A stretch of 34,906 nt of DNA, from positions 1 to 34,906 of IMG/VR virus record IMGVR_UViG_3300032053_000263; one strand, 5' to 3'. Both the position numbers and the translations under genes were made by a program. Positions within the stretch are counted from its first letter, which is position 1, and each line of letters starts with the position of its first letter. Origin of the DNA: a virus. A model generated the notes under the pieces. It ran no database searches, was not told where the DNA came from, and saw only the letters and a list, made by a program, of their open reading frames with translations. This document shows, piece by piece, positions 4,258 through 13,116 of this stretch.

Positions 4258-4890
4258 TCATTCATTTCGAAGTGAGACTACGAGACTGAATGTAGGTGTG
4301 CCAGCCACACCTCTAACAAAAACCTGTGAAAAAGCAGGAAAAGTGGTGTTGAACTGGGGACCAGTAGTCGAGAAAGGAGGAACTCTAAATTCAGGGCCGC
4401 CTTTATCGAAAGCTACGAATAAGTCCACAGAACCATCATTTTCTATGTTTACGTTCTGGCATTGTAGAGGAAGATTGATTTCCAAGGAATTTGCTACTGT
4501 TGCACCGGATGGAGCCGCTCCGCGAAGAACAACAGGTCTCCGTGGCTGGGATGAATATGATAGTACGAGATGAATAGCTTCATCAGTTCCGACTACACCA
4601 GCGTTATCGATGGGCTGAATCTTCAACCAAAGATAATCAGCATCCGAGAATGAATAATCTACTGGATTAAATATGAAGCGGGTCTTATTTCGAAACATTC
4701 CGTCAGCAAAGCTGGGCTCTTGGGCCGTGGCAGAACGGAAACCAGCTGCTGGTACGTTTTGGAATGTGACGAAAGCACCATCGAAATTAGCGGACCTCTT
4801 AAAATTATAAGAGGCAATGCCGTCTCTTGCGTTAAGATATATATCTACTAGATTGGCTCGACGCCGATATGTTGATAAAGATCTTGGCAT
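4258..4890 (-). CDS. Probable virion structural protein
   Basis: The protein has 210 residues, begins MPRSLSTYRRRANLVDIYLN, and is largely beta-rich. Its segments include DADYLWLKIQPIDNAG, HLVLSYSSQPRRPVVLRG and VNIENDGSVDLFVAFD. The last third (fluctuating beta strands with N-x-G-S-x-D-L-F-V-A-F) resembles a jelly-roll or Ig-like domain of a phage decoration or tail protein. There is no strong Shine-Dalgarno. It lies between the ATC-start zinc-ribbon gene and the 182-residue structural gene. No family is recognised. Confidence 0.65.
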   Translation of the reverse strand: MPRSLSTYRRRANLVDIYLNARDGIASYNFKRSANFDGAFVTFQNVPAAGFRSATAQEPSFADGMFRNKTRFIFNPVDYSFSDADYLWLKIQPIDNAGVVGTDEAIHLVLSYSSQPRRPVVLRGAAPSGATVANSLEINLPLQCQNVNIENDGSVDLFVAFDKGGPEFRVPPFSTTGPQFNTTFPAFSQVFVRGVAGTPTFSLVVSLRNE

Positions 4891-4922: not shown

Positions 4923-5327
4923 TTAAACGATATTTTTCTCCTTCTTAACCTTTTGAGTATATGTAGCCGCGCTTTCTTTTCCGCGCTCTTTCAAGGCCAA
5001 ATTCTGGGATTCTGCCCAAGAACTAGTCTCTTTTCCATCATAGTTAGGAACAGCATCTCTCCTGAGAGGTCCATATCTATCCCTCTGGCGTCTACTGGCA
5101 GCTTCAGAAGCTTCTTTCCGCTGCTTTTTTACTCGGTCACCCTTAGAAGGCCAAGAACCGCTGGGACCATCTTTAAAGGCTACCTGAGGAACAGTTGGTA
5201 TGAAGGTATAATCGCATTTCTTCCCGCATTTTAGACACTTCGGATGATGTTCCTTGAAAGTATGAATGGAACAATCATCTTCACGAACTTTTTTACATGA
5301 TTTACATATGTAAAAATATGTTGGGAT
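4923..5327 (-). CDS. FmdB-like zinc-ribbon protein with apparent ATC start
   Basis: This open frame encodes 134 residues and has no ATG, GTG or TTG between its upstream in-frame stop and the conserved N-terminus. Translation most likely starts at ATC 5325-5327, exactly 6 nt after a strong GAGGAG Shine-Dalgarno (5334-5339). The N-terminus then reads (M)PTYFYICKSC, matching the MPTYxYxCxxC start of FmdB-type regulatory zinc ribbons. The second half of the ribbon is CLKCGKKC near residue 31-38. The C-terminal two thirds are charged and helical (DRVKKQRKEASEAASRRQRDRYG), ending KVKKEKNIV. It follows the SWIM gene by 30 bp. FmdB-type ribbons are common, but the function here is unknown. A base error at the start codon is the main alternative. 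Confidence 0.8.
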   Translation of the reverse strand: MPTYFYICKSCKKVREDDCSIHTFKEHHPKCLKCGKKCDYTFIPTVPQVAFKDGPSGSWPSKGDRVKKQRKEASEAASRRQRDRYGPLRRDAVPNYDGKETSSWAESQNLALKERGKESAATYTQKVKKEKNIV

Positions 5328-5357
5328 AGTAATCTCCTCGTTATGTAACGAAGAACT

Positions 5358-6641
5358 CTACTTCTTTTCCTTATCTAATTCTTTTTCCGATTCATCAAAG
5401 TCTATTTCATATTCATCATCTTTAGATTTTTCAGGAGACTCGTCAAAATCTATTTCATATACGTCCTCGGGCTCCTCATCGGGCTCCTCCTCGGGCTCCT
5501 CAAGATCGATCTCATATACGTCCTCGGGCTCCTCCTCGGGCTCCTCCTCGGGCTCCTCCTCGGGCTCCGGTTTTGCTTTAGATTCGGTCTCTGGTTCTTC
5601 CTCAGAATCGTCGAGATCGATTTCGTAGACGTCTTCTTCATCCCCATCAGGGATCTCAGATACTTCCCAATCAACTTCAAGATCATCAGAATCATCAAGA
5701 GGTACTTCTGTTACCTCCTGCATTTTATCCCAATCCTCATCTATTTTAATGAGTATCTCATCCTCTTCCGAGGTCTGATTTTCTTCAATTTCGTCTGCTA
5801 TGAAAGAGTCTATTCTCTTTAAGACAGCATATGTATGTTTACACAACCAAAATTGCCGATCAGGATCTCTTATATCAGGAGGAGATGCAGTACCGTTTGG
5901 GTTACCAAACATGAAAGCATTCTGTTCAGCATGAAATTCTGGACCACCATATTGCCAGAATTTGCAATCACAAGTCAGAGACACATTCTCAAGGTCTTTA
6001 ACTGACGCACGGACAATGTGGTTGCCGTTGCCGCAGTTAGCATTGAATGTGAAAACCTTCGTTTTCTTATCATATGAAGTTAAACTGACTGAACATGAAG
6101 ATGCGCGATCCTTGACTTTAGATGGAGTTTTGGTAATTATTGATTCGGATCTTAAAGCCAATTTTAAAATCAATACTTTTGGAATAACTGAAGAATGCCT
6201 TACAGGACTTTCCTCTGTCCTGTATGGATAATCAAAATATTGACTTATATCAATATCTTCCATATAAGAAGTTTCTGTCGGAGATTGAAGATTTTCATCA
6301 ATGAAATCTTCATTGTGGTGCGTCATAGCGTCCGCACCGTCAATCTCAAATATCGAACCAGGTTCCGAACTCGGAATGGTCGGTTCGTTATCATTATAAG
6401 TAAAAGTCTTAGTACCGAATAAATCAGCTTCTTCGGTATCGCCGGTAGGAACAGCTAATCTAGATGCTGTTCTACTTGAAGCCATGGTTACATTTATTGG
6501 TATTAGGAATAGATGTCGAAGATGAGAGGGAATAGCAGCAGAGAAGCTGACTACGTCAGGAAAAACATCCTGAATTTTAAAAGCATACATGGCTGATTCC
6601 GAAAGAACATATCCGTTCGGAACATCATCTTCATTTGCCAT
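5358..6641 (-). CDS. SWIM zinc-finger protein with acidic repeat tail
   Basis: The protein has 427 residues. The central part holds a SWIM-type zinc motif, C224-x-C226, a 40-residue loop and C267-x-H269, preceded by beta strands VFTFNANC and HIVRASVKDL. SWIM domains bind nucleic acid or protein. Residues 1-160 contain an R-T-A-S motif at 57-60 and acidic segments. The last ~130 residues are strongly acidic, with Glu-Pro repeats and four copies of a YEID[LF] motif ending in KELDKEKK. The tail suggests a protein-binding or DNA-mimic region, which is inference. The start codon overlaps the stop of the upstream 128-residue gene by 11 bp. The gene sits among likely tail genes. Confidence 0.75.
   Translation of the reverse strand: MANEDDVPNGYVLSESAMYAFKIQDVFPDVVSFSAAIPSHLRHLFLIPINVTMASSRTASRLAVPTGDTEEADLFGTKTFTYNDNEPTIPSSEPGSIFEIDGADAMTHHNEDFIDENLQSPTETSYMEDIDISQYFDYPYRTEESPVRHSSVIPKVLILKLALRSESIITKTPSKVKDRASSCSVSLTSYDKKTKVFTFNANCGNGNHIVRASVKDLENVSLTCDCKFWQYGGPEFHAEQNAFMFGNPNGTASPPDIRDPDRQFWLCKHTYAVLKRIDSFIADEIEENQTSEEDEILIKIDEDWDKMQEVTEVPLDDSDDLEVDWEVSEIPDGDEEDVYEIDLDDSEEEPETESKAKPEPEEEPEEEPEEEPEDVYEIDLEEPEEEPDEEPEDVYEIDFDESPEKSKDDEYEIDFDESEKELDKEKK
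5450..5570 (-). repeat. 12-bp tandem repeats encoding Glu-Pro tail
   Basis: A 12-bp unit (plus-strand TCGGGCTCCTCC) is repeated in two blocks, about 5466-5504 and 5524-5568, encoding EEPE units. A larger unit encoding EDVYEID plus EEPE is duplicated around 5455 and 5511. The repeats stay in frame, so length variation would change the tail in four-residue steps. Confidence 0.8.
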
Positions 6642-11016: not shown

Positions 11017-13116
11017 TCAAGTTTTTGATCTGATTAGCATGCCCTCACAGAAATTCCTATCCTGATCGAATTCAACACGACATTTTTCACATTCATGTTC
11101 TATGGACACGGAGGCATCCCAAGGAGCGTCATGGCCACAAGCATGGTGAATTCTCGTAAGATTTGCTGGATTAATTTTCTTTACTTCCAGACCACGTGCT
11201 TTAGCGACTTCTTCAATTATCTTTCGGGTATTCCCGGGCGCATAGGCGTCACGTCTCCGTGATATTGAAGTAATAACCTCAACAGGGACGGAACCACGGT
11301 TATCCTTCGCGACCCTTTTGATCTTTGCGTAATTCGTATTTTCAATAAGAATAGTCGAATTATTGTCACAAATCTCATGGGCCCAGACATGGATTTGATT
11401 CTGACGAATCTTCCGTGATTTGAAGCGACTCCCGGCTTCATGGTTCTGGATTGATTTATCGTCAAAGGTCCAAGTGTTTAGCTCCTCAAAAATTATTTTA
11501 TCCTCTGGACGAACAAGAGTATTCGGGCCGCAGAAAAAACTAAGAAGTGAATCCATAGCCAAAACGAATTTCCACTCGTTGTGAACACTATGTAGTCTAT
11601 TTGAAAGACTCTCGTCTTTCGCGAGAGGGAGAAGTTCAATCTTCTTCCTCAAGGAGCGTTCGTTATAGCTTCTTGCACGAGATTCCTCCCCTGACCAATG
11701 AGGAATAATGATTTTCTTACCATCATTCCTACTAAAAGAATCAGGAAAAATGCAGTCCTTGGACCATTTCAAGATGGAATCTCGCATTTCATTGGCAGCA
11801 AGCTCCCGTGACTGTCTTCGTTTGTCCGCAAGATCAATCTTCTTCTCTACCTTCGGATCAACAGTCATTTCCTGAGCAAAATTAGTATCATCGAGGGTAT
11901 ATGCCACGCGTCCAGTTGATCGATAACCGAAGTTGAAAGCAACGGTCCCATCACCATGAGGCTTCTTTGGATGAAGATGAGTCTCATCCTGAACTTGGAG
12001 TTGAAGCTCATATTTCGTTCGATTACCGCGCATGAATATGGAAACCCATGCACCGACAATTTTTCCGTTTTTCGGGAGAGGACGGTGAATGACGATAGGA
12101 AACTCAACCCAGACGGGTAGTCTGCCACGATTGGCTCGACCAAGAGAATCAACACAAATCCTCATATTGGTACGCGTTTTCCGAACCCAACTTGAATTTG
12201 GTTCACCATCGACGCCCTTTTCACGCGAGGTTTTTTGCTCCCAAACTTCGTCCGGGATTTTTACGATTTGGAGAACAGTATTCCCCTTATCAGCCCAAGT
12301 ACCATTTTCGAAAGAACAATCATGAACTGAGCTAACGTTCAATCCCTCGTTTGTACTGACAGGAGACCCGACACGGCCTTCTCCGGTCCAGCGTTTGAAA
12401 GCCGGGAAAGTATCCGAAGTCCTTAAAGCCTGGTCTACAGCATCGTCAATTAGGGCGTAGGTGCCATAGTACAGACCATAATATTTTTTGGCCCGCTCGA
12501 TATCAATCGATACCTGGTCATCAATATGTTGAGTTGTCTTGATAAGGTTTGCTTCTTTAAGAAGCTTGTTTAGAAGCTTCCCGCTCGGCTTCACTCCGCG
12601 CTTTTCTGAGTCTACCGAAAAATTCAGCTGGAAACGACGACGAGGGGAAACACAATCGGGTTCCAAATCAAGAAGATCCATGAGTCTTGATTTGGAGAGA
12701 ACGATTTTTCTACTTTTGAAATCTGCTTTGATTTCTTTTTCGCGTTCGCGGCGTCGAGCTTCTTCCTTTGGAAGAGACTTCATTATTACCGCTTCCCGTA
12801 ACTCACGAATGTGAAGTTCAAGTTCTTTAATCTGGGAATAAAGAACAGGTTTCGCATCATCCGGAGTCTTGCGAACGGCATCATTTAAAGTCTCCAACTG
12901 TTCGAGCTTGTCGGAGTATCCGCCTCTCTGGGCCCAGAATTTGGCGGTTTCTTTACGCTTCCAAAGCTCGATTTCGAGCAGAGCGTTGTAATAATGACAG
13001 GAAGCCCTCAACATCCTATGGAGAGCTTCTCCTCCTGATTTTGGAGGCAGAAGACCGAATGTATAAATTCTGGTCGGAAGCTTATCTGCAGATGCCATGG
13101 ATCGAATTACACTCAA
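11017..13116 (-). CDS. Cas12/TnpB-like RuvC effector with RuvC-I Asp replaced by Asn
   Basis: The protein has 699 residues if started at TTG 13116, or 693 from ATG 13098. The N-terminus (RIYTFGLLPPKSGGE, then YYNALLEIELWKR) matches the opening of TnpB, Cas12m and related phage-encoded type V-like proteins. RuvC motifs appear in order: RuvC-I VAFN395FGYR, RuvC-II IIFE544ELN, and RuvC-III FD684QD686RN, with a zinc finger before the last (H657-x2-C660, C676-x2-C679). RuvC-I normally has Asp where this protein has Asn395 (AAC, 11932-11934), so DNA cleavage is probably lost. Known nuclease-dead relatives bind DNA under RNA guidance and repress genes or recruit partners. No CRISPR array, TnpA or transposon end was seen. 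Role and guide source are unknown. Confidence 0.8.
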   Translation of the reverse strand: MSVIRSMASADKLPTRIYTFGLLPPKSGGEALHRMLRASCHYYNALLEIELWKRKETAKFWAQRGGYSDKLEQLETLNDAVRKTPDDAKPVLYSQIKELELHIRELREAVIMKSLPKEEARRREREKEIKADFKSRKIVLSKSRLMDLLDLEPDCVSPRRRFQLNFSVDSEKRGVKPSGKLLNKLLKEANLIKTTQHIDDQVSIDIERAKKYYGLYYGTYALIDDAVDQALRTSDTFPAFKRWTGEGRVGSPVSTNEGLNVSSVHDCSFENGTWADKGNTVLQIVKIPDEVWEQKTSREKGVDGEPNSSWVRKTRTNMRICVDSLGRANRGRLPVWVEFPIVIHRPLPKNGKIVGAWVSIFMRGNRTKYELQLQVQDETHLHPKKPHGDGTVAFNFGYRSTGRVAYTLDDTNFAQEMTVDPKVEKKIDLADKRRQSRELAANEMRDSILKWSKDCIFPDSFSRNDGKKIIIPHWSGEESRARSYNERSLRKKIELLPLAKDESLSNRLHSVHNEWKFVLAMDSLLSFFCGPNTLVRPEDKIIFEELNTWTFDDKSIQNHEAGSRFKSRKIRQNQIHVWAHEICDNNSTILIENTNYAKIKRVAKDNRGSVPVEVITSISRRRDAYAPGNTRKIIEEVAKARGLEVKKINPANLTRIHHACGHDAPWDASVSIEHECEKCRVEFDQDRNFCEGMLIRSKT

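Follow-up and report, generated by a model that had tools for sequence, protein, structure and literature searches.

An FmdB-like zinc-ribbon gene of a phage with an apparent ATC start codon

We examined a 34,906-nt stretch of viral DNA (IMG/VR record IMGVR_UViG_3300032053_000263, hereafter the window) and consider it likely that it carries an FmdB-like zinc-ribbon gene of a large tailed phage that is translated from an AUC codon behind a strong Shine-Dalgarno (SD) site, at a low level sensitive to initiation factor 3 (IF3). The original prediction, that the gene appears to start at ATC, is confirmed as an observation on the sequence, in which ATC is the best-supported reading of the start codon. 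The gene and its putative initiation signals are as follows.

4923 to 5327, minus strand: FmdB-like zinc-ribbon coding sequence of 134 codons with an ATC start; 57% and 53% identity to the L002 and L005 proteins; four invariant Cys.
5325 to 5327, minus strand: ATC at the initiator position, aligned with the ATG or GTG of about 25 relatives and with the ATT of L005 and L076/L080.
5334 to 5339, minus strand: GAGGAG SD site with a 6-nt spacer, read from the sequence; 5-6 nt spacing is also found in L005 and L076.

On the minus strand the frame reads TAG-AGT-TCT-TCG-TTA-CAT-AAC-GAG-GAG-ATT-ACT-ATC-CCA-ACA-TAT-TTT-TAC-ATA-TGT. The in-frame TAG (5360-5358), located 10 codons upstream of ATC, is the end of the upstream gene; the coding sequence stops at TAA 4925-4923 with all of its codons open, and its translation begins IPTYFYICKSCKKVREDD. 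As first noted, no ATG, GTG or TTG lies ahead of the conserved N-terminus; none occurs in this frame from the upstream TAG to codon 110, which is TTG. The frame is for this reason missing from the standard list of open reading frames (ORFs; at least 40 aa), in line with the original statement that standard gene callers miss it. The GAGGAG site was also found where it had been placed, at 5339-5334, separated from ATC by the spacer ATTACT. The ATT at 5333-5331 was rejected as a start, as the SD site leaves no room for it. The interval first proposed for the gene, 4923-5339, stands only in part: the coding sequence ends at 5327, and the remainder includes the SD site.

The zinc-ribbon frame is certainly coding, since its product shares 57% identity with a protein from a 273-kb viral contig (L002) and 53% identity with one from an 82-kb viral contig (L005). 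C8, C11, C31 and C34 are invariant in 30 relatives, as are several W, K, PN and G positions, and the WPSKG and PNYDGKE motifs are intact in the window protein. The N-terminal PTYxYxC and the two Cys pairs of the FmdB zinc ribbon are likewise present. The protein scores 14 bits against Pfam PF09723 (curated cut-off 34.4) and 15.4 against NCBIfam TIGR02605 (curated cut-off 31.3), and because both scores are under the cut-offs we refer to it as 'FmdB-like'; among PHROGs, it is matched by the FmdB-like family phrog_1076 (E 0.0011). Its MPTYxYxCxxC-type start and two CxxC knuckles are those of the FmdB family (PF09723/TIGR02605/phrog_1076), but it differs in that its scores fall short of the Pfam and NCBIfam thresholds and that its C-terminal part is long and helical. 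In an AlphaFold model (mean pLDDT 82, pTM 0.35) the zinc ribbon at the N-terminus is predicted well, whereas the arrangement of the three helices that make up the C-terminal part is uncertain; searches of PDB folds returned only generic zinc ribbons and no significant match. The term 'transcription regulator' is merely an annotation that the FmdB family carries.

Alignment with about 25 homologues from a profile search places their initiator ATG or GTG on the ATC codon of the window, which bears out the claim that ATC occupies the initiator position of the family (xPTYxYxC). Homologues with a normal start elsewhere were sought and none was found among them; all of them, however distant, use the same codon. 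The closer relatives, all of them metagenomic, were collected by a codon-unbiased search for the signature DGP(S/T)GSWPSKG, yielding a clade of 16 distinct proteins including that of the window. Their starts are ATG in 10, GTG in 3, ATT in 2 (L005, with a 6-nt spacer behind AGGAGG, and L076/L080) and ATC in the window alone; the start of L002 is ATG. With the window itself excluded, ATT, ATC or ATA (ATH) is therefore used by 2 of 15 clade proteins. As most relatives use ATG, the protein can evidently function without a weak start.

One base separates ATC from ATG, and the codon is known from assembled sequence only. Nevertheless, a sequencing or assembly error concealing a true ATG or GTG is very unlikely, because ATT recurs at this codon in independent relatives (L005 and L076/L080) and in separate assemblies. 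L076 and L080, recovered from two metagenomes, show no mismatch across 3,700 bp, and three more pairs elsewhere in the family, differing by 0, 1 and 6 SNPs, have ATT in both members. Independent errors, moreover, would not cluster at a single codon of one family, nor would they explain why weak starts associate with an SD site. A search of cultured phages for homologues with ATT yielded almost no homologues of any kind.

AUC is generally a poor initiator, and the start might have been lost by drift from a gene that is little or no longer expressed and is heading for loss. We regard such decay as improbable, given that the 134 codons remain open with the four Cys and the WPSKG and PNYDGKE motifs intact, that a strong SD site is retained, and that ATC or ATT is found in three lineages of the clade. 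An SD-like sequence (GGAG, GAGG or AGGA) lies within 20 nt upstream of the start in all six non-ATG members of the clade versus one of the ten ATG members; the associated Fisher P-value for the 16 members (8.7e-4) is only descriptive, because the contrast was noticed before testing. This apparent link agrees with a general trend for suboptimal starts to have stronger SD sites (PMC5622118).

The genomic neighbourhood of the zinc-ribbon gene includes two genes on the same strand and a predicted structure over the SD site.

5358 to 6641, minus strand: upstream gene, SWIM zinc-finger-like with a Glu/Pro-rich tail (Pfam SWIM match at E 8.5e-4, slightly under the cut-off); adjoins the zinc-ribbon gene in most relatives.
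4258 to 4890, minus strand: downstream gene of 210 aa; 34-54% identity, with gene order kept, in most clade members.
5334 to 5355, minus strand: predicted hairpin UUCUUCGUU-ACAU-AACGAGGAG taking in the SD site; -8.6 kcal/mol, z -2.4, matched by 4 of 200 shuffled sequences.

Genes for capsid, protease, portal and terminase elsewhere in the window also share this strand. The sole long conserved plus-strand gene found near the zinc-ribbon gene, at 955-2745, encodes four treble-clef zinc fingers (DUF4379) together with REase-like and Mom/GNAT-like parts and looks like inserted cargo. A gene at 11017-13116 (minus strand) encodes a TnpB/Cas12f1-like nuclease with a PF07282 TNB domain; its first listed start is TTG, and 34 codons further on there is an ATG accompanied by an SD-like site. 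In the SWIM-like gene, 57-bp and 12-bp tandem repeats at 5439-5568 encode the tail EEPEEEP...DVYEIDL, and acidic tails recur in relatives.

In the window, the TAG that ends the SWIM-like gene is in frame with the zinc-ribbon ORF, and a stem-loop lies 2 nt downstream, an arrangement that would allow the zinc ribbon to arise solely by readthrough, as an extension of the SWIM-like protein. We give this possibility almost no credence. The zinc-ribbon ORFs of L005 and L002 are not in the frame of the upstream gene, the zinc-ribbon frame has an SD site of its own, and this phage and its relatives use TAG as a regular stop codon; recoding of TAG was rejected on the same observations. Opening of the hairpin, which directly follows the upstream stop, by the upstream ribosome would couple translation of the zinc-ribbon gene to that of the SWIM-like gene, but we place little weight on such coupling because relatives lack the hairpin. 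The structure disappears when a shorter stretch is folded, and the corresponding z values in relatives are -0.5 to -0.8. A conserved hairpin occluding the SD site was rejected, as it is seen in the window only.

The unusual start is not confined to the window. We scanned IMG/VR and 84,980 prokaryote genomes for the pattern GGAG-N4-9-ATH-CCN-ACN-TAY-NNN-TWY-NNN-TGY. About 20 of the 35 matches in IMG/VR are zinc-ribbon genes in which an in-frame stop, but no canonical start, precedes the ATH codon, which is mostly ATT and in some cases ATC or ATA (ATA in L070). A sample of these viral genes scores as PF09723 or TIGR02605, most of them above cut-off. The prokaryote genomes gave 31 matches, of which 30 are chance or not zinc ribbons and one is plausible: an FmdB-type zinc-ribbon gene of Actinomycetospora (L103, 92-406) with an apparent ATT start behind GGAGGAG. 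With a canonical start instead, the pattern occurs in 65 of 296 genomes from Actinomycetota and in 4 of 299 from Pseudomonadota. ATH frequencies from the pattern scan are rough because the scan required IPTY and GGAG. A start-codon-blind sample of 72 viral family genes comprises 57 ATG, 8 TTG, 6 GTG and 1 ATT starts, which puts the ATH share of the viral family at about 1% with a wide error. Mapping the ATH state onto a poorly resolved tree of 117 short proteins takes 12 changes, and well-supported branches force at least five of them. As judged from these sequences, the ATT, ATC or ATA start of phage zinc-ribbon genes is real and recurrent, and evolved several separate times. By way of comparison, 1 of 61,358 ancestral AUG starts was found to have switched to AUU (PMC5622118). 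A 362-kb phage contig (IMGVR_UViG_3300037608_000209) carries two FmdB-like genes, one starting with ATG (L037) and one with ATT (L088).

We examined 543 conserved ORFs, drawn from the window, from two related phage records and from 37 loci. Once alignments starting within a gene or in repeats were discounted, a canonical start at the conserved N-terminus was missing from just two of them, the window gene and the L005 orthologue. When 1,167 testable ORFs from 167 loci were considered, consistent ATH starts behind an SD site were seen in zinc ribbons only, and no second family with such starts could be firmly identified among the approximately 1,050 ORFs estimated to lie outside the zinc-ribbon family. 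The ORF test shows specificity and not frequency, because many loci were chosen for their zinc ribbon. At 5052-5501 of L082 there is a possible second ATT-start gene in the same contig, behind AGGAG and with a single homologue vote. A phage-supplied initiator tRNA with a GAU anticodon would be expected to read both AUC and AUU, but we judge this to be extremely unlikely: no tRNA was found in the window or the 82-kb L005 record (both fragments), no other gene in the ORF set needs it, and the family includes an ATA case (L070).

To our knowledge, starts other than AUG, GUG and UUG are limited to a handful of bacterial genes, nearly all of them cellular. In the literature searched, no report of AUU or AUC initiation in a phage gene matched the present case. 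The IF3 gene infC starts at AUU in E. coli, and pcnB also uses AUU; these genes resemble the zinc-ribbon gene in that a good SD site accompanies a weak, near-cognate AUH codon. However, the product of infC is the very factor that discriminates against the infC start, whereas nothing ties the zinc ribbon to initiation. We think it unlikely that phages repeatedly evolve AUU, AUC or AUA starts at this gene because the zinc ribbon acts on translation initiation or is regulated through it, whether by infC-like feedback or as a sensor of IF3 by which expression is timed to the translation capacity of the host. Phage T4 gene 26 has an internal AUU start and so resembles the zinc-ribbon relatives in AUU initiation in a phage, but there AUU gives an internal second product, whereas the zinc-ribbon gene has no start other than ATC. 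In Staphylococcus aureus, infC starts at AUA, and cvfC1 (AUU) and ccpN (AUA) have conserved AUH starts with strong extended SD sites (PMC13009471); the cvfC1 product, 61 aa long, may contain a zinc finger (PMC13009471). Both genes are like the zinc-ribbon gene in pairing an AUH start with a strong SD site, but they are bacterial chromosome genes whose starts were shown by Ribo-Ret, whereas the zinc-ribbon start is known from sequence. Streptomyces sigR also has a non-canonical start and an extensive SD site and was missed by annotation (PMC5472188), and its start keeps dosage low (PMC5472188). It differs in that it encodes a sigma factor and that its GTC start was proven by mutation.

In the mechanism that we favour, initiator fMet-tRNA would pair imperfectly with AUC, and the strong SD site (GAGGAG, 6 nt) would position the ribosome and partly offset the weak codon. 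The protein would still begin with fMet, followed by Pro-2, and its output would be low and IF3-sensitive. AUC and AUU are near-cognate codons against which IF3 discriminates. Discrimination by IF3 against near-cognate starts has been described (PMC5472188, PMC13009471). A Streptomyces GTC start is repressed by IF3 (PMC5472188), and S. aureus AUU and AUA starts behind a strong SD site give approximately 10% of AUG expression (PMC13009471). Because AUC belongs to this class of codons, and in view of the S. aureus value, we infer that AUC is used in the cell and that the protein level is low. The repeated appearance of ATT, ATC or ATA at the same codon also suggests that little protein is made. 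By analogy with the known genes, it is plausible that the non-AUG start lowers or autoregulates expression, as originally proposed. Selection may keep dosage low or IF3 sensitivity in place; the sequence would fit low dosage that is selected equally with low dosage that is merely tolerated.

Members of the zinc-ribbon family can thus be overlooked or shortened by gene callers. One phage protein family appears to have changed its start codon several times with compensating SD sites, and it may thus serve as a natural set for studying how phage protein dosage is controlled at initiation.
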